This document shows positions 1,884 to 28,090 of a stretch of 64,000 bases of DNA, piece after piece; position 1 is the stretch's first letter; each line of letters starts with the position of its first letter. The stretch covers positions 243,191 to 307,190 of the forward strand of contig SKCR01033454.1 of the NCBI GenBank assembly GCA_019454045.1. The letters run 5' to 3'. This DNA is from Zanthoxylum bungeanum. Taxonomy: Eukaryota > Streptophyta > Magnoliopsida > Sapindales > Rutaceae. Both the position numbers and the translations under genes were made by a program. The notes below the pieces were generated by a model. The model worked only from the letters and a program-made list of their open reading frames with translations. It did no database searches and was not told the origin of the DNA.

Positions 1884-2941
1884 GTTCGCTAACGGTATTT
1901 TGACGAGTCTTCATTCCTCTCTAACCCAACGGAAATCTATGGCGGCTTTTAAAACTACGAGTTAGCATGGTACATGTATCCGTGCAATGCATGAAATATA
2001 TAAAACGTGTGAGGTAATCAAACAGAATATATCTTTCCGACCTTATTTCTCCCGCATTCGTGATAAGCCTATTTTTGGTTCTAAGTATGGCTTATTCTAT
2101 GCACCGATGCAAGGTACACAAAATCGCTCTCTCATATGCTACGGGGTGAACCTCGGCTACCTTGGTCCATTTCCATCGGTAAAAGACAAAGACCGCCCAT
2201 TACCAACATGGACTAAGCCTATTATGAGATCACGTCATTGTCTAGAAACGACGAATTGGGCTTTCGGCAACCGTGGTCATGGGGATGAATTTGGAAGCAT
2301 CCAAAACTATACAAATATGTCATAACAAGGCGTATCCTTTCTGGATGAAAGCCAGTGCAGATATAAGACTCATGCTTCTGGCATATTTGGATCATGTTTG
2401 GATTTTCTAAACCCATCAAGATTCTCATACAAGTTGGCCTATTATCATTTTAACGCATTCAATCATATTATTGCGAGGTGTAAACTTGTCACAGTTGAAA
2501 AAGGGCCAACAGTTTTACACTTTTGCAATAACGTGGCTAAACAACTTCAAATGATAGGGGCCCAAACACAAAGTGGCCCATCGACATTTTAGAAGCTTTT
2601 GGCCCAATTTTCATAAGACACAAACACATCCCAGTTTAAATGGCCCAACAAGTTCACATCTCATGACAAGAAGTCCAAATGAATCCAAATGATGATGGTC
2701 CCAAACACAAGCATAAATGATGGCTTCTATAGGTCATGCAACTATGGTTCATATGCAGGTTTATAGGAGTATAGATAAGGCTCCTGCCGGCGAAGGATTT
2801 CCCACAACTAGGTCTCCCCACTCAAGGTTTCGAGCAACTAAGTGAGCACACCTTTTTTTATACCCCAAGGTACGTGGCAACCAGTGATGATACGATATAA
2901 CGATCCGCCGCTTTGAGCGAAAACGACTTCACGATACATGA
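1884..2941 (-). other. Noncoding leader-like sequence upstream of the Ty3 gag
   Basis: About 1 kb without a credible gene lies between the gag start at 1883 and the abrupt start of Athila-like sequence at 2942. By position it could be the 5' leader of the gag-bearing element, whose other part would be 11991-12165. I find no primer site or LTR end in it. The short plus-strand open frames at 1987-2325 and 2398-2592 have no recognisable domain. Confidence 0.35.
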
Positions 2942-3483
2942 TTCTTGATTCTCCTCAGCCTCCTCTTTTATTAAGGTGTCATCGTGAAATGTTGGTACTC
3001 TGAGGCTTCATCTGAAAATGATTCTTGAGGTATATAGCTCTGGTTTTCTATTAATTGTCTGATCTGATCTGTCATTTTCTGTATGGATCCTGCGTTACTC
3101 TGAATTTGTGCATCAAATTGAACTGCTTGTTCTTTGAACATGTGAATCAATTGATCTTCCTCGGATGGATCTGGTTCTTGATAAGAATCAAAGGAAGATG
3201 GTGGATAAGATGAAAAATGTGATGATTCTTCGTACCTTGGTTGATTCCAAAAATTCTGCCACTCTGAAAGGTAAATACATTGATCGCTCGGGTGGTTACC
3301 ATCACAAATTACACATCTCCCTTTTCATTCTGTTGAGCAAATGTAGAATTGCTTGATTCTGAATTCCAGTGATAATTGTTGGGCTGAACAACAGGCCTCA
3401 GAAAACTGGACTGTTGCTCCCAGATTTGGGGTGTATCTTCTTGTAAAGCTTGTAACTTCTCAATCTCCCAGTAGTGTTCCATT
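2942..3483 (-). pseudogene. Truncated second copy of the Athila-like gag
   Basis: This is a near-exact copy of 9214-9756, the N-terminal part of the gag-like ORF. It starts abruptly at 2942 (matching 9214) and runs to the start codon region at 3483. Two single-base losses relative to the other copy break the frame: a G-T-run loss near 2992 (gaaatgttgg against gaaatgtttgg) and a C-run loss near 3317 (catctccctttt against catctcccctttt). The remaining internal part is missing. It lies outside the left LTR, so the locus has the order LTR, interior, LTR, truncated interior when read on the minus strand. Confidence 0.85.
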
Positions 3484-3591
3484 TTTTAATCACCTGAAAA
3501 CAAAAAGAAATTAAAATTACAAAAAAAAAGAAAGAAAATTAGATATAAGTAATTTAGATAGTTTCAAAATTAACAACTCAAGAAAAATAAG

Positions 3592-3609
3592 TCCCCGGCA
3601 ACGGCGCCA
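3592..3609 (-). other. Primer binding site, tRNA-Asp type (left copy)
   Basis: Read on the minus strand the site is TGGCGCCGTTGCCGGGGA. It is the complement of the 3' end of plant tRNA-Asp(GUC), including the CCA tail, and is the usual primer site of Athila-type Ty3 elements. It sits six bases from the inner end of the LTR at 3616. Here it belongs to the truncated extra interior on the left. Confidence 0.9.
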
Positions 3610-4513
3610 AAAACTTGACCGGCGTAAACACACACGTATAACGCAAGCGCACGTATCGTTCAAGTAGTATAAAAATATCGATCCCACGAGGACTTAATTC
3701 CTACTGTTGTTATTAATTGTTGAATCTATTAATTACAAATATCTAATTAAATGGAGATGAGAGAGATTGTTTGATTGATTGGTTGATTGTGGTGTTGCTA
3801 AATAAATAAATAAATAAAAAGACAAAAGAAAATACTAAGGAAAATAAAAGACTCAAAGATCTAGGGTTGTGAATCTTTCTAATATCATTTAAAAGATGAA
3901 GTAGTTATATTATAGTTGGGTAAATTATTGAATTATTAATCTGGAACACTAAATTATGTAAAAGCCTCTTCCGAATGATCATTTACAAATACCTAGTATA
4001 ATCCAATTGAACCATATGTCTATGTCAATTAAATTACCTAGATTCATTAAGATTGAGTTCCAATTATGACTACCCCCGCCCGACAGGTATATTCCTATCC
4101 TGTAAGGAAATCTATTAAAGGGTTATCTATCCTTAAGGAAGATCGTGGGTTGTTGAGACTAAGGTCTTAAACTTAAAATCCCTATGTCTAGTTCATTTTA
4201 AGTTTACCTAATCAATTTTATTAGTGATCGGTTAATAAAAAGCATTAAGATTATGACTCAACAAATAACTCTTTTAATTACCTCAACTATAATCTAACCC
4301 TTTTTTAATACGGTGATATTAGAAATCATCACAACCCTAGAATACTAACTTAGTTACAACACATAGTTAGGACTAGTAAAACAAAGATAAAAATTACTAA
4401 AAAAAGTAAATGCAGAAAAATAAAATAAAATGCTAAGGAAAAGGAATTAACTTCTACTAAATACTAATTAGAAATCTCCCATAAAATATAATATATACTT
4501 GTGATATTTTTAT

Positions 4514-4619
4514 CAACCAGCCAAAAGGCGGTAATATTTGTTATTAAACCAGCCATAAAGGCGGAACCAAAATAACCAGCCATAAAGGCGGAACCAAAAT
4601 AACCAGCCATAAAGGCGGA
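4514..4619 (-). repeat. Minisatellite in the LTR R/U5 part
   Basis: Four units of the type AACCAGCCATAAAGGCGGAA lie head to tail with 7-15 bp spacers, and a fifth diverged unit (ACCGACCAATATGGCGGTA) follows near 4639. The same array is present in the other LTR at about 10790-10893. It lies downstream of the TATA box in the sense direction and so would be in the transcript. Confidence 0.75.
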
Positions 4620-4963
4620 ATAGTAATTTTATTATCACCGACCAATATGGCGGTATCATTTATTAGTCAGGTTTTAAATAGTAAATATATTATTTTTAGG
4701 GAGATTAATCTAAATAGCAATAGTAAAAGAATTACCTTTTTTACCTTAGCGGTGAAAAGTTACCTACACATAGTAATTAGTAAAAAGTAAAAAATAAAGT
4801 AAAAAAAAACTGTAAAAAGTAAGAAAGTGAAATTACTATTACTATTAAAAAGTAATTAAAAATATTTATAAAACTTAAACTAAAATATTCTAGAGAGAGA
4901 AGCTCTCAATTTAGAACTAAAAAAAGAGAGAGAAAGGTACAATGAAAACTGAAAATTCGATCT

Positions 4964-4973
4964 CTATTTATAG
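4964..4973 (-). promoter_or_regulatory. LTR TATA box (left copy)
   Basis: CTATAAATAG on the minus strand is a textbook plant TATA box, between the ACGT-motif array on its upstream side and the AT-rich R/U5 on its downstream side. Transcription would be expected to start some 30 bp further on, near 4930-4940. Confidence 0.75.
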
Positions 4974-5041
4974 GCTCGGATAAGGCTCCGGCGTCGCGAC
5001 GCCCAAATTGCACTAGCGTCGCGACGCTGGGTACAGTAGGA

Positions 5042-5408
5042 CACGTGTCATGCGCTGGTTGGCTGGCTCAGAATCTTATCCGATGACGTGGCACTATTCA
5101 TGACGTCATTGCTTGCGTCACGATGACGTGTCAACTGTTCATGACGTCATTGCTTGCGTCACTCTGATGATGTGGAAGGCGACGTGGCGACACGTGGGGC
5201 GGTGGCCGTCAGACGAATGAGAGGTTGACACGTGTCGCACTGTGATTGGCTGATGCTGACGTGGCATGTTGACTCGGTTGACTTGCTGACGTGGCTGCTG
5301 ATGTGGACGACACGTAGGATGACACGTGGGGCGGTGGCCGTCCAAGCAATGAGATTTCGACACGTGGCACGGCGCATTTTAGCATCTCCGTTGTGATGGT
5401 GACACGTG
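5042..5408 (-). promoter_or_regulatory. Dense ACGT-core (G-box/ABRE and C-box) array in U3, left copy
   Basis: Perfect CACGTG occurs at 5042, 5191, 5229, 5323, 5361 and 5403. TGACGTCA occurs at 5101 and 5142. TGACGTG occurs near 5083, 5123, 5257 and 5287. Most CACGTG sites are in the form GACACGTGG or GACACGTGTC, the classic G-box/ABRE context bound by plant bZIP factors (established knowledge). The array ends 70-440 bp upstream of the TATA box in the sense direction. The motifs are read directly. Control by ABA, light or stress is inference. Confidence 0.8.
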
Positions 5409-5716
5409 GCACGGCGCATGTTAGCAAAGTCAACTTTTCTCAGATTCTGATTTTGTGGACCCGGCGCATGTTAGCAGATTCGGCGCACGCTGGGCGTCGC
5501 GACGCGGAAGGTCCGGGCGGCGCGACGCTGAAATGACGATTTTGCCCTTTTTGTCCAATTTTGTCCAATTTGCCCCAAAACAGCTCCAGAATGTCCTGAA
5601 ACTTTATTTATCTGCAAAATAACACAAAATATATCAAAACGTTCATAAAACTCAAGAAACTATACAAAATATTAAGTTAAATGAGTGGGAAATAGTGATA
5701 GAAATACCACTCATCA

Positions 5717-5755
5717 CACCCCCAAACCTAACATTTTGCTAGTCCTCGAGCAAAA
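5717..5755 (-). other. Polypurine tract and 3' motif next to the 3' LTR
   Basis: On the minus strand the sequence runs CTCGAGGACTAGCAAAAT, then TTAGGTTTGGGGGTG, and then directly the LTR start TGATGAG. A G-rich tract touching the 3' LTR is the expected plus-strand primer of a Ty3 element. The GAGGAC-AGCAAA motif before it is common at the 3' end of Athila/Tat-type interiors. Confidence 0.75.
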
Positions 5756-7262
5756 TACAGAATAAAATAATGAATAAAATTAACTAAGCCATTTTCGTAG
5801 GGATCACGGTTGCATTTAGCGTATGCAACAAGCCTTTAAACCCCTAGGTGTCCCTAGTGGACGAGTTGTAGTCTCGTGAGGGTTTACAGCAATGATACCC
5901 ACAAACATTTTACAAAAGTAAAAAGGTATTAAAACTAATGCACACAAAAGCAAAAAGACAAGCGAAAAGAGAATAAAGATGTTAGTGACTAATCAGATGA
6001 AATTTCTAATCCAAGTTACTAGATGTTTTGTTTCATTCTAAATTACTGAATAAGTAAATTCTCCGATTATTTTTACCATTCTTCATATACACAGCCAACA
6101 TAATATTAAACAACTCATTTTTGCCCACAACAGTCATAAGTGCAGTTGATAAGAAAGTAATATTTTTGTCCTAAAGTTCTATTAGATTTCACATCTTTTT
6201 GTAGCAATGGAAATAAATTTTCTGATTTTTCTGATTTTTTCTTTGATTTTCTGAATTTTGACTATTTTTTTATTTATATACAATATCTTCCGTCTATGTA
6301 GCGAGCTTGGGTCGGTGACTCCCAAACCAGTTGGCTTTAGGGCATCAGGTGTTAAGACACCCCTAAGGACTTAATTACTCAGACTTCAGATATATATACA
6401 TATATATAAATTTTTCATCATTTTTGATCCATGTAACAAGCTTTGGGCCAATGACTCCCAAACCAGTTGGTTTTAGGGCACTAGGTATTAAAATACCCTT
6501 ACAGACTTAATAACTCGGATCTCAGATGTTTTTTTTTTTTTTTTTTATTCCATCACTAATTATAGATGCTTCTCCAATTAAACTAGAGCACGGAATATTA
6601 CAAACTTTTCAATTACAGCTCATGTCCGTATGTTACTATGTATGTTGATAATATCTGCTAACTAAGTATATGAAGATTCATTTTAGTCAGTTTTATGGAG
6701 AATTTACAGATTTAATAATTCAAAAGTGAATAAACAAAAATTAACTTGTTTTGAATTAGGTTTGAAATACGTCTCAGGAGTGGGAATTCCTTACACAGCT
6801 ATTTCTTACCAATTTCATCTTTTTAGTCAACATAACATCAAAACATTTCTACTAGTCATAAAATTATAATTTACATTTTTTTAGAAGTTTAATCAAAGGC
6901 TCAGTTTATGGTGTGTGATTAACTGTCGAATGGACTTCCCGTTGTAGATTCCCCAGAGGGAAGGTGGAGCGAGGCTCACTTAAGTACCCTAGCCCCTTAG
7001 GCTCTTATCGCTTGTTGTCAGGAATAACACACGAGTCCTCCAAACTAGTCTGTCACAACACACTACAAGTGAATGATTATCTAGGTGCCTCCACAGCTTT
7101 TCCTTATAAAAAGGTAGTGAGTGAAGGAAGACACCAAACCATTACCTAGCTTTAAATATGCCCTTTGTTTTTATTAATTTTTTAATTTTTTTGTATTTTT
7201 CGAAAAATTTTGGACTAAAAATAAAAACACTATACAAACAAACAAGTACTATTAACTATACC
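5756..7262 (-). other. Noncoding 3' region of the LOG element with an internal tandem repeat
   Basis: No gene is seen here. A unit of about 95 bp occurs twice in direct orientation, at about 6294-6390 and 6418-6530. Both units share AAGCTTGGG-like, GACTCCCAAACCAGTTGG and TTAGGGCA blocks and end in TCAGATnT. A patch at 7072-7150 resembles 11986-12075 just outside the other LTR, sharing TAGTGAGTGAAGGAAGACAC. This suggests a mosaic of several element 3' ends. Confidence 0.6.
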
Positions 7263-7310
7263 TCACCCCCAAACCTAAATGAGACATTGTCCCCAATGTC
7301 TTAAACAATA
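7263..7310 (-). other. Second polypurine-like 3'-end module, just downstream of LOG
   Basis: On the minus strand the sequence reads GACATTGGGGACAATGTC followed by TAGGTTTGGGGGTGAG. It resembles the module touching the 3' LTR at 5717-5755 but lies 1.5 kb inside the element. The GACATTGGGGACAATGTC part is itself palindromic. It could be an older element end left internal by recombination, or a central-type plus-strand primer. Confidence 0.6.
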
Positions 7311-7360: not shown

Positions 7361-8014
7361 TTAAAGGTTAAGATCCAGATTAATTCGACGCTTCTTACCA
7401 CGATCATCCTCGGACCATTTTATCTTTGAAATGATAGGGTCAACTTGTGGTTCAAAGGCTACGAGTTGATCAATTAAATCCGGTGCAGTTCTGGCAGTAA
7501 AGAGGAGTTCTTTCATAGGCTTTGACACGAACCCATTTCTCCGAGCATCATCAAGAAACACACAAAGAAAATCGTAAAACCCATCAACGTTGAGTAGTCC
7601 AAGCGGTTTCTGGTGTATGTTCAGGTTCGCCCAAGATAGTACAATAAAAATTTCCTCCAATGTGCCTAAGCCACCTGGCAAAGCAATAAAAGCATCAGAA
7701 CGGGTAATCATTTCTACCAGTCGTTCAGACATACCTGGCACAATTAGTTCTTCTCCGTTTGATGATCCAATAAGATTTGCCTCTGCCAAGGGTTTTGGGA
7801 CGATTCCCAAAACATGACTGCCTCCTTCCTGTACGGCCTTTGAAACGATCCCCATTAGTCCAAGATTTCCTCCGCCATATATTAAGTGCATATTCCTTGC
7901 TGCTAAGACTCGACCCAATTCCTGTGCTGCCTCTATGTATTGTGGTTTAGTACCAATAGTACTACCGCAAAACACACAGATGTTCTCAACTCGTCTTCTT
8001 GAAGTGGCTTCCAT
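7361..8014 (-). CDS. LOG: LOG-family cytokinin riboside 5'-monophosphate phosphoribohydrolase, intronless
   Basis: LOG enzymes release active cytokinin bases from their riboside monophosphates in one step, in cytosol and nucleus. The 217-residue ORF has the normal plant length and runs uninterrupted. Visible family features are the Rossmann start ICVFCGSTIG (residues 12-21), YGGGNLGLMG (about 45-54), the arginine in GMSERLVEM that matches the catalytic Arg region, and the signature PGGLGTLEE (about 113-121) with its glutamate. WANLNIHQKPLGLLNVDG follows. The usual Lys after that Arg is Leu, and the signature has Leu where plant LOGs mostly have Tyr. The tail is basic (GKKRR) and ends in LDLNL, an EAR-like motif. 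The start at 8014 follows an A-rich leader and gives a strong context (AAAATGG). Plant LOG genes normally have several introns and this one has none. It lies in sense orientation inside an LTR element, in the env-like ORF position, so it is probably a retro-captured copy. Activity is inferred. Confidence 0.92.
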   Translation of the reverse strand: MEATSRRRVENICVFCGSTIGTKPQYIEAAQELGRVLAARNMHLIYGGGNLGLMGIVSKAVQEGGSHVLGIVPKPLAEANLIGSSNGEELIVPGMSERLVEMITRSDAFIALPGGLGTLEEIFIVLSWANLNIHQKPLGLLNVDGFYDFLCVFLDDARRNGFVSKPMKELLFTARTAPDLIDQLVAFEPQVDPIISKIKWSEDDRGKKRRINLDLNL

Positions 8015-8880
8015 TTTTTTTTATGTATTTCTTTCTTAACTCTGGATGCCTTCAAAAGTGCAATGACGGGCTGAATTTATAGTACCTGAAAAGGGTGAGT
8101 AATAATAGCACTAGTATCTTCCAGAGGAAGATTATAGCTAAACAACAAAAGAGATCGTGAAAGGTCAAAAAATCTGGATCCTGTCTACGAAAATAAAGAT
8201 AATTACAACAGAAAAGCAAATCAAAGCAATAATTAAGGCAACGGAATTGTGTATGCAATACGCCACTCGTTTGGTATATAAATCCATTAAGATGCGTCTT
8301 TAAGATTTCATTCCTTATTCAGCCATCGTTAATGAATTGTTCCAAACACAATTTCTTTTGTCTTAAAATTCTCAGTTTGTGCTTTTCCCTACAAAAATAA
8401 CACACAAAATTAAAAAGTTCACACTAAATACATAAAATATGAAAACAGAAATTACAACAAATTGCATAGGTTGCCTCCCTGCCAGCGCTAAATTTTTCGT
8501 CTTCAGCCAGACGTGACTGAAATTCATCTGTTAAGGAGGTTTCAGTGTCGTTTTGGATGTCCTATCAAAGACAATCCCGTGAGCGTTGCTTTTGAAGGGT
8601 CTCTTCCAACGGTAAAGTGGCAAAAAGAATTTTGTCTCATTCAGTGCTCGTGCCACCTTTTTGATCTTTGTTGCTCCAATGGTTCCTGTAAAGAAAGAAA
8701 GAAAATCAGGAGGTCTTGTATGGTGCTTGACTTGGAATGGAAGTTCCATTCTGTCAAGCTTTTGTTGATATCTTTGGTTTGTACTCCCCAAAACAACGAT
8801 GTTTTTCCTGAATGCTCTGGATCTTTAATAAAGTCAGACATTTGCTCCTCCATTTGCTCTGCTTCTTGTTCCCTTTTTCT
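8015..8880 (-). other. Region between gag and LOG with Athila post-pol motif
   Basis: Sense-strand order after the gag stop is a partly open stretch (8531-8853, no domain recognised), then GCGCTGGCAGGGAGGCAACC at about 8470-8489, a motif known from the post-pol region of Athila/Tat elements, then an AT-rich stretch up to the LOG start. Pol is missing between gag and this motif. A pyrimidine-rich acceptor-like site, CTCACCCTTTTCAG, lies near 8086-8099, about 70 bases before the LOG ATG. It could let a spliced RNA present LOG as its first ORF. The open frames 8531-8791 and 8641-8853 overlap in different frames and look like remnants. Confidence 0.6.
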
Positions 8881-9756
8881 TCACAGATGTATTTGAAAAT
8901 TTCTGCATTCATTCAACTCTTCATCTGTCATCTGTGAAATACATGTTTCAAAATTTTCAACCTGAGGATGAAAAGAAATGTCAGATTTTAGGTCTTCATC
9001 CTCTGATCTGGTTGAAATGATTGGCTCAGGTAGATCTTCTTCAAACATTTGTGCAATGGAATCTCCTAGATCTTCATTTTGAGGATACAGAATTCCATCC
9101 TCAATTTTTGATGCAGTTGGCACAAACAGCTCAGTTTCATCCTCGTCAGAATCTGAAAAATAGAAATCTAATCGAGACTTTGCCGGTTCGGGTTCCTGAA
9201 CTGATACCTCTGGTTCTTGATTCTCCTCAGCCTCCTCTTTTATTAAGGTGTCATCGTGAAATGTTTGGTACTCTGAGGCTTCATCTGAAAATGATTCTTG
9301 AGGTATATAGCTCTGGTTTTCTATTAATTGTCTGATCTGATCTGTCATTTTCTGTATGGATCCTGCGTTACTCTGAATTTGTGCATCAAATTGAACTGCT
9401 TGTTCTTTGAACATGTGAATCAATTGATCTTCCTCGGATGGATCTGGTTCTTGATAAGAATCAAAGGAAGATGGTGGATAAGATGAAAAATGTGATGATT
9501 CTTCGTACCTTGGTTGATTCCAAAAATTCTGCCACTCTGAAAGGTAAATACATTGATCGCTCGGGTGGTTACCATCACAAATTACACATCTCCCCTTTTC
9601 ATTCTGTTGAGCAAATGTAGAATTGCTTGATTCTGAATTCCAGTGATAATTGTTGGGCTGAACAACAGGCCTCAGAAAACTGGACTGTTGCTCCCAGATT
9701 TGGGGTGTATCTTCTTGTAAAGCTTGTAACTTCTCAATCTCCCAGTAGTGTTCCAT
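8881..9756 (-). CDS. Athila-like Gag-related protein with a zinc knuckle
   Basis: A single open frame of 291 residues starts at ATG 9756, about 108 bp downstream of the primer site, the normal position of gag. Near residue 57 it has a knuckle CVICDGNHPSDQC (spacing C-x2-C-x3-H-x4-C) followed by a Trp/Tyr/Pro/Ser-rich stretch, as in Athila-type Gag after the capsid part. The second half is very acidic, with a possible coiled segment (AQIQSNAGSIQKMTDQIRQL) and repeated Glu/Asp runs. A capsid core upstream of the knuckle is absent, so the protein is a shortened Gag that may bind nucleic acid but may not assemble particles alone. The stop is followed by sequence from the 3' side of pol, so a gag-pol junction has been deleted. 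A broken duplicate lies at 2942-3483. Confidence 0.75.
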   Translation of the reverse strand: MEHYWEIEKLQALQEDTPQIWEQQSSFLRPVVQPNNYHWNSESSNSTFAQQNEKGRCVICDGNHPSDQCIYLSEWQNFWNQPRYEESSHFSSYPPSSFDSYQEPDPSEEDQLIHMFKEQAVQFDAQIQSNAGSIQKMTDQIRQLIENQSYIPQESFSDEASEYQTFHDDTLIKEEAEENQEPEVSVQEPEPAKSRLDFYFSDSDEDETELFVPTASKIEDGILYPQNEDLGDSIAQMFEEDLPEPIISTRSEDEDLKSDISFHPQVENFETCISQMTDEELNECRNFQIHL

Positions 9757-9863
9757 TTTTTAATCACCTGAAAACAAAAGAAATAAAAATTACAAAAAAA
9801 AGAAAGAAAATTAGATATAAGTAATTTAGATAGTTTCAAAATTAACAACTCAAGAAAAATAAG

Positions 9864-9881
9864 TCCCCGGCAACGGCGCCA
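9864..9881 (-). other. Primer binding site, tRNA-Asp type (functional copy)
   Basis: TGGCGCCGTTGCCGGGGA on the minus strand is an exact complement of the tRNA-Asp 3' end. It is placed six bases inside the 5' LTR (9888-11990) and upstream of gag, as needed for minus-strand priming. Confidence 0.92.
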
Positions 9882-11237
9882 AAAACTTGACCGGCGTAAA
9901 CACACACGTATAACGCAAGCGCACGTATCGTTCAAGTAGTATAAAAATATCGATCCCACGAGGACTTAATTCCTACTGTTGTTATTAATTGTTGAATCTA
10001 TTTAATTACAAATATCTAATTAAATGGAGATGAGAGAGATTGTTTGATTGATTGGTTGATTGTGGTGTTGCTAAATAAATAAATAAATAAAAAGACAAAA
10101 GAAAATACTAAGGAAAATAAAAGACTCAAAGATCTAGGGTTGTGAATCTTTCTAATATCATTTAAAAGATGAAGTAGTTATATTAAGTTGGGTAAATTAT
10201 TGAATTATTAATCTGGAACACTAAATTATGTAAAAGCCTCTTCCGAATGATCATTTACAAATACCTAGTATAATCCAATTGAACCATATGTCTATGTCAA
10301 TTAAATTACCTAGATTCATTAAGATTGAGTTCCAATTATGACTACCCCCGCCCGACAGGTATATTCCTATCCTGTAAGGAAATCTATTAAAGGGTTATCT
10401 ATCCTTAAGGAAGATCGTGGGTTGTTGAGACTAAGGTCTTAAACTTAAAATCCCTATGTCTAGTTCATTTTAAGTTTACCTAATCAATTTTATTAGTGAT
10501 CGGTTAATAAAAAGCATTAAGATTATGACTCAACAAATAACTCTTTTAATTACCTCAACTATAATCTAACCCTTTTTTAATACGGTGATATTAGAAATCA
10601 TCACAACCCTAGAATACTAACTTAGTTACAACACATAGTTAGGACTAGTAAAACAAAGATAAAAATTACTAAAAAAAAGTAAATGCAGAAAAATAAAATA
10701 AAATGCTAAGGAAAAAGGAATTAACTTCTACTAAATACTAATTAGAAATCTCCCATAAAATATAATATATACTTGTGATAATTTTATCAACCAGCCATAA
10801 AGGCGGTAATATTTGTTATTAAACCAGCCATAAAGGCGGAACCAAAATAACCAGCCATAAAGGCGGAACCAAAATAACCAGCCATAAAGGCGGAATAGTA
10901 ATTTTATTATCACCGACCAATATGGCGGTATCATTTATTAGTCAGGTTTTAAATAGTAAATATATTATTTTTAAGGGAGATTAATCTAAATAGCAATAGT
11001 AAAAGAATTACCTTTTTACCTTAGCGGTGAAAAGTTACCTACACATAGTAATTAGTAAAAAGTAAAAAGTAAAAAGTAAAAACTGTAAAAAGTAAGAAAG
11101 TGAAATTACTATTACTATTAAAAAGTAATTAAAAATATTTACAAAACTTAAACTAAAAATATTCTAGAGAGAGAAGCTCTCAATTTAGAACTAAAAAAAG
11201 AGAGAGAAAGGTACAATGAAAACTGAAAATTCGATCT

Positions 11238-11247
11238 CTATTTATAG
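11238..11247 (-). promoter_or_regulatory. LTR TATA box (5' LTR, driving gag and LOG)
   Basis: CTATAAATAG on the minus strand is identical to the left copy. It lies about 70 bp downstream, in the sense direction, of the nearest CACGTG. Confidence 0.75.
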
Positions 11248-11315
11248 GCTCGGATAAGGCTCCGGCGTCGCGACGCCCAAATTGCACTAGCGTCGCGACG
11301 CTGGGTACAGTAGGA

Positions 11316-11685
11316 CACGTGTCATGCGCTGGTTGTTGGCTGGCTCAGAATCTTATCCGATGACGTGGCACTGTTCATGACGTCATTGCTTGCGTCACGA
11401 TGACGTGTCAACTGTTCATGACGTCATTGCTTGCGTCACTCTGATGATGTGGAAGGCGACGTGGCGACACGTGGGGCGGTGGCCGTCAGACGAATGAGAG
11501 GTTGACACGTGTCGCGATGTGATTGGCTGATGCTGACATGGCATGTTGACTCGGTTGACTTGCTGACGTGGCTGCTGATGTGGACGACACGTAGGATGAC
11601 ACGTGGGGCGGTGGCCGTCCAAGCAATAGGATTTTGACACGTGGCACGGCTCATTTTAGCATGTCCGTTGTGATGGTGACACGTG
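11316..11685 (-). promoter_or_regulatory. ACGT-core motif array in U3 of the 5' LTR
   Basis: The array seen in the left LTR is preserved here. CACGTG sites occur from 11316 to 11680, two TGACGTCA sites lie near 11379 and 11419, and there are further TGACGTG cores. Because this copy is upstream of the LOG ORF, it is the one that would regulate it. Preservation in both LTRs follows from copying at the last transposition and is not by itself evidence of selection. Confidence 0.78.
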
Positions 11686-11990
11686 GCACGGCGCATGTTA
11701 GCAAAGTCAACTTTTCTCAGATTCTGATTTTGTGGACCCGGCGCATGTTAGCAGATTCGGCGCACGCTGGGCGTCGCGACGCGGAAGGTCCGGCGGCGCG
11801 ACGCTGAAATGACGATTTTGCCCTTTTTGTCCAATTTTGTCCAATTTGCCCCAAAACACTCCAGAATGTCCTGAAACTTTATTTATCTGCAAAATAAAAC
11901 AAATATATCAAAACGTTCATAAAACTCAAGAAACTATACAAAATATTAAGTTAAATGAGTGGGAAATAGTGATAGAAATACCACTCATCA

Positions 11991-12165
11991 ATTATCTAGA
12001 TGTATTCACAACTTTTCCTTTGGCTATAAAAATGTAGTGAGTGAAGGAAGACACCAAATCATTATCTAACTCCAATATTACCTTAGGTTAAATCAACTCT
12101 AGACAAGGTTAACTAAAGCACACATCACAAACATTACAAGACATTATTTCGGGGCAGATTCTCTA
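11991..12165 (-). other. Leader fragment between the LOG element and the tRNA-Arg primer site
   Basis: Short noncoding stretch. Its left part (11991-12075) resembles 7072-7150 inside the LOG element. Its right part leads into the primer site at 12166. ATTAT at 11991-11995 is the expected position of a target duplication, but the partner site cannot be located because the far end of the tandem is truncated. Confidence 0.5.
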
Positions 12166-12183: not shown

Positions 12184-12769
12184 GACTATAGGCGAGGTAC
12201 AGAAGTGGACAACGCTGCCCGGGCTCGCGACCCCCGGTCGGGAGTACGGAATAGCCCGCGGGGACTAAATCGGAGAAATAAAATGAAGTCGCCACCCAGT
12301 GTGAACTGGGAAATGATTTAAGGCCGCACTCACCCCTCGCAAGGGAAGACCTCAAACCGTTGGGTCAGAATGGTCCCTTACTTATGCCATTGTAATGAAA
12401 AGATTATGCAATATGTACAACCAAGTCTCATGCAACACATACAGATAATTTAAGCAACATGCAAGTTTGCACATCCATAATCGTAAATAAAAAATGAAGG
12501 CAAAATACATAATTCATGAACGTATTAAACAATAAAGTGCAATAATGTAACTAATAACAACTATAAAGGCATTAATAATAAAAGCGAGCACACAATCTCA
12601 TGAGCATATCAAATAAATAAATGCGGAAATATAATAATTAATAACAGTAAAAGCGTCAATAATGAAATGATATGATTAGTTATGTAATGTAAAAGAAATG
12701 ACCAAAGAAGCAAACATGCATGAAATGTGACGAAAAGAAATCTATTCACTGTACGTGCATTCGTGAAGC

Positions 12770-13115
12770 ATTTGAAAACGCGTTCGAACGGTAAACAGAA
12801 TACATGCGTTTGTGTAGCATTGAGAAATGCGTTCGAACAAAAGTGAGACAGAATGTGCACATTCGTGTAGCGTCCGGAAACACGTTCGAACGGTAAACAG
12901 AATGTATACGTTCGTGTAGCATTCAGAAACAAATTCGAAGGATAATGAGACAGAATGTTCGCGTTCGTTTAGCATTCAGGAACGCGTTCGAACGGGACAA
13001 GACCTGATGCATATGGTAAAATAGAATGCATGCGCGTTCGAGTAGCGTTTATAAACACGTTCGAACGGACTGAGGTAGAATGCATATGTTCGTGTAGCGT
13101 TCGGAAACGCTTTCG
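12770..13115 (-). repeat. Array of TTCGAA-centred palindromes in the Ogre-like LTR
   Basis: About seven units of roughly 50 bp each carry a core GCGTTCGAACGG, spaced by GTAAACAGAATGTnnnC and CGTTCGTGTAGC. The 10 bp CGTTCGAACG core is a perfect palindrome. Several units show decay of CG to TG or CA. Confidence 0.75.
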
Positions 13116-13257
13116 AACGAGATTACCCAAAATGGTATCTGAAATGACACAAACACATGTGTGGATAAACAAATACATAATGTAGGACCTCGTATGCCCG
13201 ATTGAACATATTTCACATTCAATCGAGTGTACTTCATCCTACGCGGAAAAACATCAT

Positions 13258-13860
13258 GGTAAAGGTAGCCTTTTAGGCTTTTTCTCCCTCAAATAGAGGA
13301 CCTTTAACCAACATGATTAGCCCATGCGCATCAAACAACAATGCATGAACAAACAAAGAAGTAATATGCGAAAAGTAAATAACGGGCTAAAAGGCGCGGC
13401 AAAATATTACGGTAATGGTATCCTTTTAGGCTTTTTCTCCCTCAAATAGAGGACCTTTAAACCAACGTAATTAGCCCATGCGCATCAAGTAACAATGCAT
13501 AGAAAATAAATAAAGAAATAATATGCGAAAAGTAATAACGAAATAATAAAAATGTGCGGCAAAATATTGTGGTAAAGGTAGCCTTTGAGGCTTTTTCCCC
13601 CTCAAATAGAGGACCTTTAAACCAACGTAATTAGCCCATGCGCATCAAGTAACAATGCATAAATAAATGAAAGAGATGCGACCAAGGCCGACATCTATAT
13701 GAGACTTCGTATGCTCGACTGAACGTATTTCACATTCAATCAAGCATACTTCGTCCGGCGTGGCAAAACATCGTGGTAAAGGTAGCCTTTTGGCTTTTCC
13801 CTCGAATAGAGGACCTTTACCCCACATGATTAGCCCATGCGCATCAAGATTAACAATGCA
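13258..13860 (-). repeat. Four-unit direct repeat in the Ogre-like LTR
   Basis: Units near 13258, 13420, 13568 and 13775 share GTAGCCTTTTAGGCTTTTTC (or close), CCTCAAATAGAGGACCTTTA and TTAGCCCATGCGCATCAA followed by AACAATGCATAA. The solo LTR at 57300-59982 holds two inverted units of this kind (58738-59040), so unit number varies within the family. Confidence 0.75.
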
Positions 13861-15441
13861 TAAACAAAGAAACAATACATATAAAATAAATAGCGGAACA
13901 ATAAACACGAAATTAAATACCAAAATGTAAAACGTGCTTGAAAGTTCCTCAAGCGGTACGTGGAGTTGTATCCCAAGTACAGACTGCACTACCGTCCATT
14001 CGAATCCGGTTACGGAATTTACGTATGCGTTTCCATCCGATATACCGCAAGAGATAATACACAATCATCAACCCAACACAAACAAAACTATACATAAAAC
14101 ATAACGATGCATGCGAGTGATTGACAAAGAATAACTAAAAGATAAATGATAAAAAAAGGGGGCCCTCAGGTCTTACCTTTTAAGTTGCTTTTCGGAAGTG
14201 TGTTACGTCGTCGCCGGAAGGGTTAATGCTCCGTTATTTTTCTGGTTTCCCGCTGTTTTGGACTGCCATTATCGCTGTTTTCTTCTCTGTTTTTCCTTGC
14301 TATTTTGCTCGTTGTTTGGTTGGTGAATTTTGGTGATATAGGGGACTGGTTTTGGGTGATTTTTCCTCAATGTTTTGGGTTATTTTCAGGGTCTATTTTG
14401 GGTGTTTCGCTGCTGTTTTGGGGTTGGTTCGGGGACTGTTTTGGACTATTTTAGGGTCAGTTTTTGAGGTTATTTGTGGCTGTCGGTGGGCTTAGGTTTT
14501 GGTCAGTCATGGGGCTTACTACTTCTTTTGTTTGTTTGTGTCTTGTTTGGTGGTATTCAGCTAGAGGGGGGCTGCGTGAAGGGTTAGTAAGCAGTGTGTG
14601 TGGTGAGTGGCTTGCAAGGTGGCAATGCAATGTTTATGCGCTGGTCTTTTGTGGGTTTGTTGTAAGTGGCGTCTGTGTGTGTAGAGAGAAGGTGTAAGTG
14701 CCGTGAGTGTTGGCAAGAGAGAGAGGCCTAGGCTTTATTGCTTACTCGGTGGATTTTGTCTTCACGTGGAGGGGTCTTTGTGCTTTTGGTTTGTGAGGCC
14801 GAGAGTTGTAAGTTGAATCAGGGTTGTGAAGAGTGGTGATAGAATTGGCTGCTTTGTGGCTCTTCACGGTTTTAGAGAGAGTGCTTTCGTAGGGTTTATT
14901 TGTTTTGGTTTGAGAGAGAGAGACGAAAGAGAGAGGTGGTTGCCGTGAGTTGTGTGTGCATGGGAGAGGAGTGTCTAGGGTTTACTAGTGTTATGTTTTA
15001 TAGTTACCAGCTAGGGTTAGGATTGTGCATGAGTTTTGAATAAGGAAATAAATCAAATAAAAAAAGGATGTGCTAAGTTATTAAGGGAAATAAATCATGT
15101 AATTTTGGTGGGGGTATATTTAATCAAAATATTTAGGAAATAATTTGTGTATTTTTGGTGGGGAATATATTTGATTTGGTGAGTGATTTATTTAAATTAG
15201 GAAGGGATTTATTTAATTTAATTTGATTTGATTTAATTTAATTTGAAACATGTGTTTTAAATGTTTTAATTATTTTTGGATTGGGCTTGGACGAAATGGG
15301 CTTTGGATGGGTGCGGGGGTTTTGGACCGAGGCTTATATTTTAAAACAGAGATTAATCGGGCGAACCCGAGGCCAATTAGCGAGTTAAATTTGTTGATGC
15401 ATAATTGAGCTTTCATGCAAAAAAAAATGCAAGTGTCTACA

Positions 15442-15684: not shown

Positions 15685-18629
15685 TAGACCCGGCCGGCGG
15701 TTCGGTTCGGTTCCGAACGGGAACCGAACTGAACGATTCCCGGTTCCACGAGTGTGGAACTGTAACCGGAATTGAAACCGGAACCGAACCGTTTGGTTCC
15801 GGTTCCATTCAGATTTTTTTACTTTATTGAAAATAAAAAAATTGAGATTAATAAAATAAAATAATTTAAAATTATGAATTTGAATTTCTATAATAAACTT
15901 ACATTACATAATTACATTAAATTACAAATCAAATTCTTATATAAAAAAATAAAAAAAATTAAATTAAATTAAAGAGCTTGAAGTTAAATTTTTAAAAACT
16001 TAAGTTGCCTACGTATCCTCCAGGGGTGAGAGGAATCAAAGCTCACATATTTCCATTATATTTTAAAGATATTTCCCCCAATTGTAATTTTACAATTATT
16101 TAAATATTTAATTATCAATCATCATCAGTGCCTGTTGATCCTTCAGCTCCAGTTCCGCTTGCACTTGCAGTCGCAGATGCATTATCGAACAAGTCTTCAA
16201 ATTCATCAGGAGCATTTTCTTGTTGCCTCAGATCAGCTCGGGTCCAATAATCCACACATGTTGTTGCTTCTAGAGTGCTTGGATGTAATGAAGACCGTCT
16301 GACTTCCAATATATTGCCTCATATGCTAAAGGCTTTCTCAACCGCAACGGTGGAAACATGTGTTGCCAATATCTTTTAGCAATAATTGATAATACAAGAT
16401 ATACATTTTGATGTCGGTTCCACTATTCAAGGATTTGAAAATTTTTACTAACTAAACTTTCAGTTGAAAACTCAAAATTTGTAGATAAATAATTATCTAT
16501 TTCCGGGTTATTAGTCATGTTATCCCTATGTATTTTATTTCGTTGTAATAACCAACGATCACCTGCGCTAAGTCTAGATTGCATTACGGTCGTTTCGCTA
16601 CTATTAGATTGTCCTACTGATTGCAAGTTATATCTTCTAACATAATCATTAAATAACTCTATTAAATCAATTTTTATTTTAGCTATTATTATTGTAATAT
16701 CAATTTCATCTGATATTCCTAAATATCCATAATAAGCGGGTAAAACACTATTCAAACCTTCTAATTTAAATCTAAGATAAAAAACAGCAGCAATAAGATA
16801 AAGTAAATGAATATCTATAAAATAATGCAACTATTTTCGTTTCATAACATTAATAGCTTCAAACAAAACAATATCATTAGGATCACGACTATCAACATGC
16901 TCATCGAGAGTACCAACAATATTCAAACTTTCAAGAATAAATAAATGTGTTGTAGGATGATAAACTCCGCTAAAAATTTGTGTAGCATCATTAAACACTT
17001 TTAAAATCTCTAAATTTTTTTCACAAATTTCCCATTGATTAGGAAAAAATGTGATATGTTGAATATTTTGAGAAAAAAACTACATAATGCATCTTTGTAT
17101 TGCAAAGCTTGACATAAAAGAAAATAAGTTGAATTCCAACGTGTTGGAACATCTCGTAAAATTTTATCGGTTTAATACCATTAAATTTACAAAACTTGGC
17201 CCATTCTCTCATAATTTGAGAATATGATCAAATACAATTAATTGCTTCTTTAATAGGCTCAATGAAAGGTGATAATTTTTCCAAACCATATTGAACACAT
17301 AAATTATGGACATGACATGTGCAACGAACATGAAAAAAACGACCCCCTAAATTTGGTTCTCATATTTCTATTAAATCAGTGATTGATGCAGTATTTGCAG
17401 ATGCATTATCAAATCCAACTGTTAAAATTTTACCTAATAAACCATATTCATCAAAAATTACTTTCATCATTTTATAAATATTTTGTGCATTATGTTGTTC
17501 ATCAAAAACTCTAAATGCAATAAGTCATTTTTGCATGTTCCATGATGCATCAATCCAATGACAAGTCACACTCATGTATGAGTGTGTTCGCCAATGGTCA
17601 TTCCAAATATCAGAACAAATAGATAGACGCCCTTTAATATCTCTAAATGTTTCATTTAAAATAATTTTACCATCTTTGTATAATTTAAAAATTTGACGTT
17701 TTGTTGTATTTCTAGTCATTCTACATGCAGCATGATTTAAAGCATTTTGAACGTAATTAGTAAAAATAATTTGTTCACCAAAACTCAAAGAAAGATGTGT
17801 CATACAAGTTAATTTAGCAAATTCTTCTCTATTTTTAGCATTAAAATATTTAAATAAATATAAAGCACTCGTACCTCTACTAGATGATGCGTACCTGACC
17901 ATTTGAGTTTGCGTCGTATCAAGTCCAAGTTCAACCGAATGATGTCTTTCCAGGTGCTTGATCATATTGCCGTATCCACCAGAAAATTTGTAAGAAATCC
18001 CACAATGGTTGCATACTGCTCTTGAACCTTCATCAATATCGTCTAAATGAAAATGAATTTTGAAAACATCTGAGGAACGAGACTTAACTTCTCTTCTCCG
18101 TGAACCGATACTAGGGCCGCTCTCTTGGGTTGACACATTTGACATTGTGTTCTCAGATGAGCTTGTCATTTGTTGTTGTTTAAGAATTAGAGAATTGAGA
18201 ATGATAAATTGTAATTTGTAATTGTAAATGAGAGAATTGAGAATAAAAGGATTGTAAGAATTGAGAGAATTGAGAATTGAGAAATTGGTGTGTTGAAATA
18301 ATGAAAAATCACCCATATTTATACATTTTAAGAATATTTTTATGATACCTAAAATGCCTATAAAATTAGCCATTTTATTACTGTTATTAGGGGTAATTTG
18401 GGAAATCCCCAAATTTATTTATTTATTTTTTGGACGTTGGGGGCAGGGAGCAACGACTCCCCGCCCCCCAGCCCAACGGCTAGTAGCCGTTGGGGGGAAT
18501 AGTTGGAACCGAACAGTTCCAGCGGTTCAAACCGGTTCGGTTAGGATAAGAACCATAACTGAACCGGTCAGGTTCCGGTTCTGATTCCGGAACCGAAATC
18601 AGTTGGAACCGGACTCTTGACGGGGTCTA
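15685..18629 (-). mobile_element. hAT DNA transposon with BED-type transposase remnant
   Basis: The element starts TAGACCCGGCC and ends GACGGGGTCTA, giving short terminal inverted repeats. It is flanked by AATCCAAC (15677-15684) and AATCCAAT (18630-18637), an 8 bp target duplication with one mismatch, as expected of hAT elements. Both subterminal regions are packed with GGTTCCGGTTC/GGTTCGGTTC motifs, a likely transposase-binding zone. The transposase is on the minus strand. A deleted relative lies at 37940-38594. Confidence 0.88.
16115..18169 (-). pseudogene. hAT transposase (RICESLEEPER-like), interrupted by stops
   Basis: The enzyme would cut and paste the hAT element. The likely start is MTSSSENTMSN near 18169. 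The open frame extends further upstream to 18412, but that part is low-complexity leader. A BED zinc finger follows (CNHCGISYKFSGGYGNMIKHL, then H-x4-H type ending ERHHS). The first half of the RNase H-like fold reads CSDIWNDHWRTHSYM with its aspartate, then HWIDASWNMQ. Beyond a stop near 17524 the frame continues with VGFDNASANTASI, which holds the second aspartate. Later pieces (16423-16830) and the C-terminal dimerisation segment RRSSLHPSTLEATTC (16115-16309) are also readable. Only a handful of stops separate them, so decay is recent. The short terminal acidic/Ser-Thr-Gly tail is shared with the copy at 38021-38272. Confidence 0.82.
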
Positions 18630-21496: not shown

Positions 21497-22387
21497 TCAA
21501 AGGCCTCTCCATCTAGGGCTGGGCATCGGCACCGGCACCGTTGGTGAAAGCGGAAAATTTAACTGACCAGAAGTTGGCGAAAACAACAAACTCGGAGAGA
21601 GTAAAGGGTACGGTGACCGCGGTGAATTCAAGCAACCGAACGGCAGCGGTGATGATGGAAATGGAAACTGTGATTGCGGCTGTTGCTGTGACTGTGAGGA
21701 CGGTGGGGCCATTACTCCCTGCTTCTGAGATGTATCGGTGGAGTTGTTCCACCGAGGCGGAGCCAGCGGAGAGAACCCCGAGAATTGCGGCGTCTTCGAG
21801 TTCGGATCAGCAGACAAGGAAGAGTTCTGAAGGTACCGCATGTAAGCCGAAACCGGAGACTCAGCCGCCGCGTGTACCGCCGGTAAAGGCGGGAGTGGCG
21901 ACAGCGGAGCGGCCGGCCGATGGATGAAGTTGCCGCTGTTGTGGCTTGTGTAGGCGGAAGCGGGAGGGTTAGGGGGAGGAATAGGAGGGGGGGCGCATGA
22001 TAGCACGGGAGAGGGACGGTTGCTAACGTGAGAGAGGGGAGGAGGGCGGATGCGCTGGAGGCGGGAGCTGGGAGGCTTGGGCTGTTGTATAGGCGGAGGA
22101 GTGGAGAACCGGTCGTGAGCGGGCGAACCGGTAAGCTTCTGGACCACATCTCGAAAATCGTTCTTGTTGATGTTGTAGACCGGAGGCTGAGGCTGAGGCT
22201 GAGGCTGAGGGTCAAAGGCGTTGTTAGGTTTGTTGATGATAGGATTACTAGTAGTAGTAGTAGGTGGTTTAGAGATCTTGTGAGAAAGCTTGTTGATTTG
22301 TTTGAGGTATTGATCTCTATTGCTACCAGTAGTAGATTCACCTTCACCACCTCCTGAATTACAACAGCTTTTATTATCCATCATCAT
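21497..22387 (-). CDS. VQ9: VQ-motif protein, VQ9/HAIKU1-like
   Basis: VQ proteins are nuclear cofactors that bind WRKY transcription factors through a short FxxxVQxLTG motif and tune stress and growth responses. Here the motif is FRDVVQKLTG near residues 81-90, inside a longer conserved block NINKNDFRDVVQKLTG then SPAHDRFSTPPP. The region SSRLQRIRPPPL, the block AAPLSPLPPLPAVHAAAESP with AYMRYLQNS, and the C-terminal run LLSPSLLFSP, GQLNFPLSPT and PSPRWRG match the VQ9/HAIKU1 branch as I know it. The N-terminal block NRDQYLKQINKLSHKISKP fits too. It is a single exon of 296 residues, as is usual for VQ genes, with low-complexity Pro, Ser and Gln stretches (a PQPQPQPQ run). Three ATG codons open the frame, and the first is used here. 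The most host-like gene in the window. HAIKU1 and VQ9 cannot be told apart with certainty without alignment. Confidence 0.92.
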   Translation of the reverse strand: MMMDNKSCCNSGGGEGESTTGSNRDQYLKQINKLSHKISKPPTTTTSNPIINKPNNAFDPQPQPQPQPPVYNINKNDFRDVVQKLTGSPAHDRFSTPPPIQQPKPPSSRLQRIRPPPLSHVSNRPSPVLSCAPPPIPPPNPPASAYTSHNSGNFIHRPAAPLSPLPPLPAVHAAAESPVSAYMRYLQNSSLSADPNSKTPQFSGFSPLAPPRWNNSTDTSQKQGVMAPPSSQSQQQPQSQFPFPSSPLPFGCLNSPRSPYPLLSPSLLFSPTSGQLNFPLSPTVPVPMPSPRWRGL

Positions 22388-22410
22388 TATTATTATTAAA
22401 TCAAATACTA

Positions 22411-22414
22411 ATAC

Positions 22415-22445
<31 letters not shown>

Positions 22446-22470
22446 TAATAATAATAACAATAATAATAAT
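22411..22470. repeat. AAT microsatellite upstream of the VQ start
   Basis: A near-perfect (AAT)n tract begins about 25 bp upstream of the VQ start codon, in the expected 5' leader. Length variation there could change the leader. Confidence 0.85.
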
Positions 22471-22578
22471 ACCCCTCCTTTTAGATCTCACCACCACCGG
22501 ATTACAAGAAGGGGCTATTTAAAGTTTTATCAAATACAAATTAATACTGCCATTTCATTGTTGTCTTTTCTTCAGAAA

Positions 22579-25316: not shown

Positions 25317-25561
25317 TATAGTTATCATGAATTTTTATAAGTTGGAACAAAAACACTTAATGAGAAAAAAATTATGAGTCTTGTAGAAAAAACAACAGAG
25401 TGACATAATAAAATTATAATAATAAAAAATAAGATAATAGATAATAAATATATAATTCAAATATCAAAACATTACTGAAATTATACTTTTTGCGATTTCA
25501 TATAATAAAACTCATCAATTACGAAATCTTAATCAATAGTATCCGTAATTTTAATTATTTT

Positions 25562-28090
25562 TTTTGGGGTTGGTGTTCGGAGTGCCAATCCAGATCGTAT
25601 TTATGTTCGATTATGAATACGAACAATGCCTTTTTCCATAATAGTACTTATTTTAATGTAGCACCTCTTGTCTTTTATATACATATTCGATCTAATTACG
25701 ATTAGATATCTAATTATGATTAGATTGAAACTAAATCTGATTTAGTGATACATGTATATTAGACAAAGACCCTATGATTTACAACGTAGTGCACAATTAC
25801 AACGTAGTTTGTAATTGACATTGGGAAGCGTCACTATAAGTTGTATATCCTTAAATAAAGTTTTAGGTCAAGATTTACTAACACGGGTCGGTTAGTAAAA
25901 TCCGCTGAGACCAATACATGTTGTATATCGTGACTTGGTCCGATGGTTTATCCCAATGGACCATGAGTCTCGGGAGACTCGTATAGACATGTAGGTGTTT
26001 ATTTGATAGACACTGAACGACTCACTGAAGATTTCCTAATAGATGGTACACCAACGTCAATAGGAATCTTCTCGAGTTAAGCGAGCATAGTGGTCATTCG
26101 ACTTGAGATACCACAGTGGATATATGAGTTATCCTCAATACTTTGATGGCAGTCACGTCACCGATCTATTTAGATCAGACCTCCGCCTGTTTGTTGGGTG
26201 TGGACTGATGCTAATGATATCCAGTGCGTATCAAGATGGAATCTGTCAGTCCTGTGTACATGGTATATGTATCTTACACGTGTTTGCGATCTAGTAAATC
26301 CATGGCCGTGGTATAACATCAGAATCAAGTTCTGAGTGTTATTTAGAGATCGTAAATTTGAAAGTCGACAAGGATTTGACGTTCTTATCTATATCCTAGG
26401 TATAATGTGGATAGCCTGTGACGAAAGGATTATACATATGAAATGACCTCGACTTGCATAGTTTAGCGAGATTATCCGTGGTCGTTATAATTCATGAGTT
26501 AGTGGATTATGAACACGAAATTGGTTTCCGTGACGGATAAACCTAAACTTAGAGAGTCTCACTATATGAAGTGTACTCGTTGAGCATTTGGGTAACACTT
26601 TATGAATAATACAGATTATTCATAATACTTCACCGGATTAAATGAGTTAATTCAAATCATTTAAACGGTTAAACGAAAACACATCCATATGGGCATTTTT
26701 GGTCAATCTTAATTATTGTGTATTGGTATTTGATACATAATTTGATTAGATACACATTAATTATTTTTCAAATGAGATTTTGACACATACCATTAATATA
26801 TGTATTTGTTATTTAATGTAAATAAAAATACATATATATAATAATTATAATAATTAATTATTTAGATATTTAAATGTTAAATATTTGAATAATTAAATAA
26901 TATTCTTTTTCATAAATGTTATGAAAAATATTTAATTATTATTGGTTACATATGGCATGATTTAATTAAGCTTAATGTGTGCAAATTTGATTTGCTAACA
27001 TAAAGTTTGTTTTAATTTAATGAAATTAAATTGTAAAATTGACAAAAATGCCCTCCTAAAGTCGGTTAGCCTTTTTTAAAAACAAAATTGGAAAATTTTG
27101 TTTTCTTATTATTCATTCCTCCATGGTCGAAACTTCAAAAAAAAAAAAAAAGCTCTCAAATTCACTTGATGATTCAAGAAGGAAAATGAAGAAAATCAAG
27201 AAAAGGCTTAAGGAATTAGGAGGATTAAAGGTAATTCTACATATCCATAAGCTTAGAAAACATGTTTCTTATTTCTTGATGATCTAGTGAGATCCTAGGG
27301 TTTCTTCTTTTCTTAAGAATTTGGGTTTTTTTTTTTGATTTGGAGGATGAAATTGAAGGCTTGGTGCATGTGTGAAGTTGATTTGAATGATATTAATGTA
27401 ATATTTGTTCAATTTGATCATTTGATGATATGTTGTCATTCTAGAGTGTTATGACCACTCTTGTAATTCCTAGAATTGTTCTTGGGTGCTTCATTGGTGG
27501 TGACTTGGATTGGTGTTGTGATTAATTTGATTAATGTTGAAAAAGTTGGATTAAAGAATGAAAAATTGATATTTTTGGTTTCTGGATCAGATCTGGAAAT
27601 TATGGGGTTGTGATGATGAAAATGATGTCATATGAATGTATTGGATGTGTTTTGGGTGTTGGAATAATTGCCGGAAATTATTTCGGAGTTGAATTATGTG
27701 AAAATGGCGAAAAATGACGTTACCGAGTGACTTTTGAGCCAACCGGGTGACGACTACCCAAATAGTGAATTTGTCCCTGTTCGGGCAGCCCATGAACCAC
27801 CCTAATACTATTGGGGCTGACCTGAGCTGCCCTCATGTGTATTGGGTAGTCGGTTCGGTCAAAAACGTATTTTATACCATTTTGCGGAAAAATATTTTTC
27901 GTAAAAGTTTCGCGACGTTTCTTAATTATTTATGTCATTATTTGATATCGAATAAATATGTTTAGGTGAAATATGAATAAATTATTCATATTGGATATTG
28001 AATAATTTATTCGGTAATTTTAAAAAGTTTTAAAATTACGATTTCACCCGAACTGCGAGCTTCCGCTGTGCCCGCACTAAAACCCCAATA
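25562..28090 (+). repeat. Left LTR of the copia element
   Basis: Matches 32388-34887 from GGTTGGTGnTCGGAGTGCCA to the block CACCCGAACnGCGAGCTTCCG. The first bases are altered (a T run instead of TGTTA), and the end is CCCCAATA before the primer site. The 63-residue frame at 26103-26294 recurs in the other LTR at 32931-33122 but reflects sequence copying only. Confidence 0.85.

Follow-up and report, generated by a model that had tools for sequence, protein, structure and literature searches.

A LOG-family gene of a separate lineage inside a young, apparently non-autonomous LTR element of Zanthoxylum bungeanum

The element and its two genes

The window, by which we mean the whole 64,000-nucleotide stretch of Zanthoxylum bungeanum DNA analyzed here, contains on its minus strand an LTR retrotransposon, recognized by a pair of TG...CA LTRs, a primer binding site after the 5' LTR and a polypurine tract before the 3' LTR. 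Between the LTRs lie a Gag-like frame (ORF1) and a LOG-family ORF, both oriented as the element. The features, in element order, are as follows.

11991..12071, minus: diverged related-element fragment adjoining the 5' LTR, sharing 83 % identity with the element's own 7076-7151 across 81 columns
9888..11990, minus: upstream (5') LTR, 2103 bp, TG...CA
11238..11246, minus: TATAAATAG, the likely core promoter of the 5' LTR; second copy at 4964-4972
9864..9881, minus: primer binding site TGGCGCCGTTGCCGGGGA
8881..9756, minus: ORF1, 291 aa, Gag-like, with one CX2CX4HX4C knuckle
8530..8880 (lower limit approximate), minus: decayed 3' part of ORF1, spread over three frames, resembling the C-termini of homologues P0251 and P0252
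8469..8479, minus: element motif GGGAGGCAACC, between ORF1 and LOG
8084..8092, minus: TTTTCAGGT, candidate 3' splice site about 70 nt 5' of the LOG ATG
7361..8014, minus: LOG-family ORF, 217 aa (ORF call, Pfam, alignment)
7283..7300, minus: palindrome-like element motif GACATTGGGGACAATGTC, 60 nt 3' of the LOG stop
7264..7275, minus: polypurine tract GGTTTGGGGGTG, internal copy
5717..5728, minus: polypurine tract GGTTTGGGGGTG immediately 5' of the downstream LTR
3616..5716, minus: downstream (3') LTR, 2101 bp, TG...CA
2939..3615, minus: second internal region, with a primer binding site (3592-3609) and a truncated, frame-broken ORF1; breakpoint at 2939

The sequence-only reading had described an intact, intronless LOG ORF in sense orientation between ORF1 and the 3' LTR of an element with two nearly identical LTRs, and the ORF, profile and LTR evidence bears this out. 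In the ORF listing of the window, the LOG frame runs uninterrupted from ATG to stop over 217 aa with no intron, and minus-strand element motifs flank it on both sides as had been proposed, GGGAGGCAACC at 8469-8479 and GACATTGGGGACAATGTC and GGTTTGGGGGTG at 7283-7300 and 7264-7275. The LTRs differ by 15 substitutions over 2093 aligned sites (K2P 0.0072, computed with LTR ends one base short of CA), which at a rate of 1.3e-8 corresponds to an age of about 0.3 My. The duplicated sequence (2939-5716 against 9211-11990, 98.7 % identity) exceeds the LTR in length because the downstream LTR runs into a second primer binding site and a truncated ORF1, giving the array order LTR-internal-LTR-internal'. 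Since this second internal region follows the downstream LTR, leaving no outer 3' flank, no target duplication can be read.

ORF1 stops early; two of its 12 homologues, P0251 and P0252, are longer at the C-terminus. All 12 lie on contigs of about 2 kb or shorter and are 57-76 % identical to it in the alignment. We take ORF1 to be the C-terminal half of an OTA-type Gag. It matched no Pfam family at E 0.001, including the Athila ORF-1 domain (PF03078), a domain that a survey reports in only 16 % of Athila elements. With LOG and ORF1 set aside, the ORF listing holds no ATG-started ORF of at least 80 aa between the LTRs, a threshold under which shorter pol remnants fall outside its scope. The element, young by its LTRs, is apparently non-autonomous, because the Gag-like ORF1 is frame-broken and there is no pol ORF of at least 80 aa; this copy may even be inert because its ORF1 is broken, a point against the reading we favor below. 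It is probably of the Ogre-Tat-Athila kind. The primer site TGGCGCCGTTGCCGGGGA presumably pairs with the 3' end of a plant tRNA-Asp, and the label "Athila-like" given to the element earlier fits this site, in an element in which no RT for lineage placement was found.

Apart from its copy before LOG, the 9-mer TTTTCAGGT occurs on the minus strand only just before ORF1 (9766-9774) and just before the second copy of ORF1 (3492-3500), and it is absent from the plus strand of the whole window. These positions would suit alternative 3' splice sites producing two messages from one LTR promoter.

Several other features were observed in the window. A 327-aa stop-to-stop frame at 21500-22480 (minus) carries a VQ motif (PF05678, E 1.3e-10) and is probably an ordinary host VQ-protein gene, and a BED zinc finger at 17528-18418 (minus) is perhaps that of a hAT-type transposase. 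Direct repeats of 2.5 kb at 25561-28065 and 32387-34887, 94 % identical, are possibly the LTRs of another element, and fragments of Copia-type RT and gag lie at 41899-42519 (minus) and 44220-44774 (minus). Units of about 780 bp form two satellite-like blocks (45469-49355 and 55336-57267; 88-94 % identity), and an inverted related pair of tandem arrays with 102-176 bp units (12222-14053 and 58553-59945; 66-84 % identity) likely represents two opposite-orientation copies of one repeat family.

A separate LOG lineage with an altered pocket and a new tail

The LOG ORF matches Pfam PF03641 at E 1.2e-34 (119.8 bits against a cut-off of 27), scores 163 bits on the TIGR00730 profile (cut-off 96.35), matches At2g37210 (2a33) at E 2.3e-60 and is 46 % identical to Arabidopsis LOG3. 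Its AF2 model has a pLDDT of 84.5, falling below 50 in the tail (204-217), and the top PDB match of the model is 2a33, Arabidopsis LOG3 (Foldseek E 1.7e-21, 50 % identity over the aligned part). The catalytic residues R98 and E121 are present, as is PGGLGTLEE, corresponding to the PGGxGTxxE motif. Profile scores, modeled fold and motifs thus agree in placing the predicted protein in the LOG family. On the NCBIfam equivalog NF058542 it reaches 114.6 bits, below the cut-off of 300, a cut-off uncalibrated here on ordinary plant LOGs. No second LOG copy was found in the 64-kb window by tblastn.

Relatives of the window LOG were taken as the best 120 of 7803 matches and LOG3-type proteins as the best 120 of 7998. 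A maximum-likelihood tree was built from 62 proteins: 38 of the 120 relatives, 14 of the 120 LOG3-type proteins, 1ydh, 5zbj, seven of 80 GTDB loci and the window LOG. In this tree, the window LOG and the 38 sampled relatives form a clade of 39 rows (support 100/99, stem 0.56), and the LOG3-type and LOG8 proteins, which make up the ordinary plant comparison set, group apart from it (99/96). The tree accordingly disfavors a LOG3- or LOG8-type gene as the source of a recent retrocopy. The earlier proposal of capture from a current host LOG mRNA likewise disagrees with the tree, as far as LOG3- and LOG8-type genes are concerned. The intronless frame and young LTRs (K2P 0.0072) would suit the view that an ordinary host LOG message was passively transduced not long ago, functionless and soon to decay, yet the identity of 46 % to LOG3 and the deep separate clade with its common tail and pocket changes oppose it, and we regard this explanation as very improbable.

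Among the best 120 matches, the nearest full-length relatives are 84-88 % identical to the window LOG, and 20 are named to species (Xanthoceras 7, Populus 6, Diplodiscus 4, Reevesia 3), all 20 annotated as genes. Three annotated Xanthoceras sorbifolium proteins of 290-359 aa (P0008, P0014 and P0030) have two LOG-like stretches per model and are perhaps tandem or mis-joined clade members. A single-protein query found no relative in GTDB or IMG/VR. With an alignment query, GTDB yielded 574 relatives, the best 80 of them all prokaryotic (38-48 %), and IMG/VR one contig at 38 %.

To locate functional residues we used the accessible part of the work on CgLOG (PMC4979012), which proposes Arg99 and Glu122 as catalytic and Met96, His97, Lys100, Glu125 and Trp129 as the prenyl pocket, these five being identical in AtLOG3, OsLOG and CpLOG, and assigns the His-Lys-Glu positions to adenine/prenyl binding. 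In the window LOG, whose numbering is that of CgLOG minus one, M95, R98, E121 and W128 are kept, and S96, L99 and I124 replace the His, Lys and Glu of LOG3-type proteins, three of the five proposed pocket residues. The same positions were counted in proteins of 200-260 aa, 97 of the best 120 relatives (of 7803) and 114 of the best 120 LOG3-type proteins (of 7998). All 114 LOG3-type proteins have the full triad, compared with eight of the 97 relatives; a further 15 relatives keep one of the three residues (His) and 74 none, which means that 89 have lost Lys and Glu and 74 have lost His. The triad is also present in all 69 pattern-fitting loci from the 81 fetched (80 prokaryotic, one IMG/VR), under a pattern in which R, EE and PGGxGT are already required and which 12 of the 81 did not fit.

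The catalytic Arg and Glu are retained in 88 of the same 97 relatives (from the best 120 of 7803). With the His-Lys-Glu triad mostly replaced, the change therefore falls mainly on that side of the pocket which faces the base. One or other catalytic residue is absent in the remaining nine, which counts against the reading favored below. Five proteins (P0009, P0010, P0016, P0022 and P0026) are possibly non-catalytic because Gln replaces the catalytic Arg. In the tree, a single clade (98/91) unites the 34 pocket-changed rows, and all five triad-keeping proteins sampled there, from the eight known, fall outside it.

The C-terminal tail of the window LOG, GKKRRINLDLNL, is a second point of departure. 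A C-terminal LxLxL can act as an EAR motif, and KKRR as a nuclear signal. Among proteins of 200-235 aa (94 of the best 120 relatives of 7803; 96 of the best 120 LOG3-type proteins of 7998), LxLxL occurs in the last ten residues of 77 of 94 relatives compared with none of 96 LOG3-type proteins, a basic pair in the last 18 residues of 90 compared with two, and both together in 76 compared with none. Among 40 representatives below 85 % identity, Leu stands at positions -1, -3 and -5 in 32, 31 and 30, and positions -2 and -4 are variable, their commonest residues reaching 10 and 11. The window LOG and all 29 LxLxL rows lie inside a clade of 35 (100/98). We describe the LxLxL tail as EAR-like and conserved, with TOPLESS binding predicted from the motif. 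Seven of the eight proteins keeping the triad lack LxLxL yet have the basic stretch, a pattern that suggests that the basic stretch would have been acquired before LxLxL and LxLxL before the pocket change.

The sequence-only reading had called the gene cytokinin-activating, a label that sits poorly with the replacement of three of the five proposed prenyl-pocket residues. This role is doubtful for the window LOG because the His-Lys-Glu pocket is replaced and a basic/LxLxL tail gained. We considered a working cytokinin-activating LOG as mobile cargo, whose new insertions could increase cytokinin locally and change growth, for instance through larger germ-line-producing meristems. The intact ORF, the LOG fold and the retention of R98/E121 and PGGxGTxxE are in keeping with it, and in the accessible part of a wheat study LOG activity tracked neither clade nor shared critical or pocket residues (PMC11593424), which also weighs against the reading favored below. 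Against this stands the replacement of pocket Lys and Glu in the window LOG and 89 of 97 relatives, and of His in 74, at positions invariant in 114 of 114 LOG3-type proteins. Moreover, CgLOG alanine mutants at AMP-binding or catalytic residues lost nearly all activity, S19A excepted; the adenine site of CgLOG includes the pocket Lys, and the accessible part of that paper mentions no His or Glu mutants (PMC4979012). We think such a cargo unlikely. Judging from its sequence, we favor interpreting the window LOG as a nucleotide N-glycosidase that the element carries, altered in its base specificity and probably located in the nucleus.

Selection, origin and a possible role

Signs of constraint on the LOG are uneven. 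Of 52 positions at least 95 % conserved in 31 distant members, 51 are also kept in the window LOG. Changes at conserved sites fall below their expected share in 11 of 12 near copies, only slightly so for P0018, P0034, P0021 and P0002, and slightly above it in P0106 (5 against 4.8). In a neutral simulation covering three of the 12, values as low were reached in 0 of 200 runs for P0001, 1 of 200 for P0003 and 67 of 200 for P0002. Changes thus avoid conserved sites in P0001 and P0003 and not in P0002, so purifying selection appears uneven, and some near copies look as if decaying, since several are close to the neutral share. The absence of stops from database proteins is no evidence here, because those proteins are called as open frames.

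The near-neutral look of some copies would also suit a clade of intronless host genes (labeled "LOGL10" in poplar), with the window copy acquired late by the element, or inserted into it, as a passenger. The 20 species-named relatives annotated as genes among the 120 listed (best 120 of 7803), the broken ORF1 and a direct repeat on both sides of LOG point the same way. That repeat, the 10-mer CAGGTACTAT, is the longest flanking LOG, yet 169 of 2000 shuffles gave one at least as long, and no poly(A) follows the LOG stop. A separate LOG insertion with target duplication and poly(A) was rejected on these two grounds, the repeat lying within chance. Further evidence against a passenger comes from LOG domains in Populus and Citrus Gypsy consensuses, given in the accessible part of PMC9289625. 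We consider the passenger explanation doubtful. For the clade as a whole, element-borne status rests on this one element together with those published Citrus and Populus domain matches, which weighs against our own reading.

That reading, to which we assign a probability of roughly 0.5, is of a young non-autonomous LTR element carrying a second gene from an old LOG-fold lineage that has departed from cytokinin chemistry. Transcription would begin in the LTR, and splicing to the acceptor before ORF1 or to that before LOG would give two messages. The LOG protein would form the usual dimer and would still cut the base-ribose bond of a nucleoside 5'-monophosphate, with a different or modified base. 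Its basic tail would bring it into the nucleus, and LxLxL would give TOPLESS-type co-repressors a place to dock. The likeliest gain for the element would be a changed host-cell transcription or nucleotide state that aids its expression or spread.

A broader proposal, which we offer tentatively and think probably goes too far, is that plant LTR elements in several plant orders have long kept a nuclear protein derived from LOG. This protein would be a nucleotide N-glycosidase whose base pocket has been rebuilt and whose C-terminal tail docks co-repressors; a hormone-activating enzyme would thus have become a regulator, encoded by the element, that acts on host chromatin or on a nucleotide signal in the nucleus. 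If the enzyme does act on another nucleotide, that nucleotide would be a substrate important to plant mobile elements, and if TOPLESS does bind the tail, the element would encode a recruiter of host repressors. The automated labels "LOGL10, probable cytokinin riboside 5'-monophosphate phosphoribohydrolase" on genes of the clade may be wrong.

Comparison with known elements and LOG proteins

Extra genes are common in plant LTR elements, and few have a known function. The ancestor of the window cargo is well understood, and three changes from it are clear: the pocket, the basic tail and LxLxL. Steinbauerova et al. 2011 reportedly agrees with the occurrence of a YgdH/LOG domain in plant Gypsy elements. 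In the accessible part of PMC9289625, Gypsy consensuses from Citrus sinensis and C. clementina are reported to carry a YgdH (LOG) domain, as are those from Populus trichocarpa once a frequency filter is dropped. The suggestion that the LOG is a new kind of plant element cargo is thus anticipated by that publication, the accessible part of which does not discuss LOG position, pocket, tail or function. Neither cytokinin nor lysine decarboxylase is mentioned in PMC7264820 or PMC11963269, and PMC6317226 uses "lysine" only as histone lysine. We found no description of this variant's sequence changes in the open-licence PMC literature, a collection that lacks most subscription journals. The kind of cargo is known; what is new is a separate LOG lineage with a changed pocket and a new tail.

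The Citrus and Populus Gypsy elements likewise have a LOG-family domain inside Gypsy-type LTR elements, but their consensuses are built around RT (PMC9289625, accessible part), whereas the window element has no pol ORF and carries LOG between ORF1 and the 3' LTR. As described in the available parts of PMC7264820 and PMC6317226, Athila and other OTA elements resemble it in having an extra sense ORF before the 3' LTR, and non-chromoviruses include tRNA-Asp, the presumed primer here, among their primers. The window element differs from Athila/OTA elements in lacking pol and in that its extra ORF encodes an enzyme-family protein, not an env-like one. Orchid Gypsy elements that encode an RNA demethylase of AlkB type also stably carry a host-related enzyme; they differ in the demethylase itself, in their 25-kb length and in their placement in Tat by RT (PMC9289625, accessible part). 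Finally, plant LOG3 and LOG8 (2a33, 1ydh) share with the window LOG the fold, PGGxGTxxE and the catalytic Arg and Glu, whereas the window LOG, 46 % identical to LOG3, has lost His-Lys-Glu and gained the basic and LxLxL tail.
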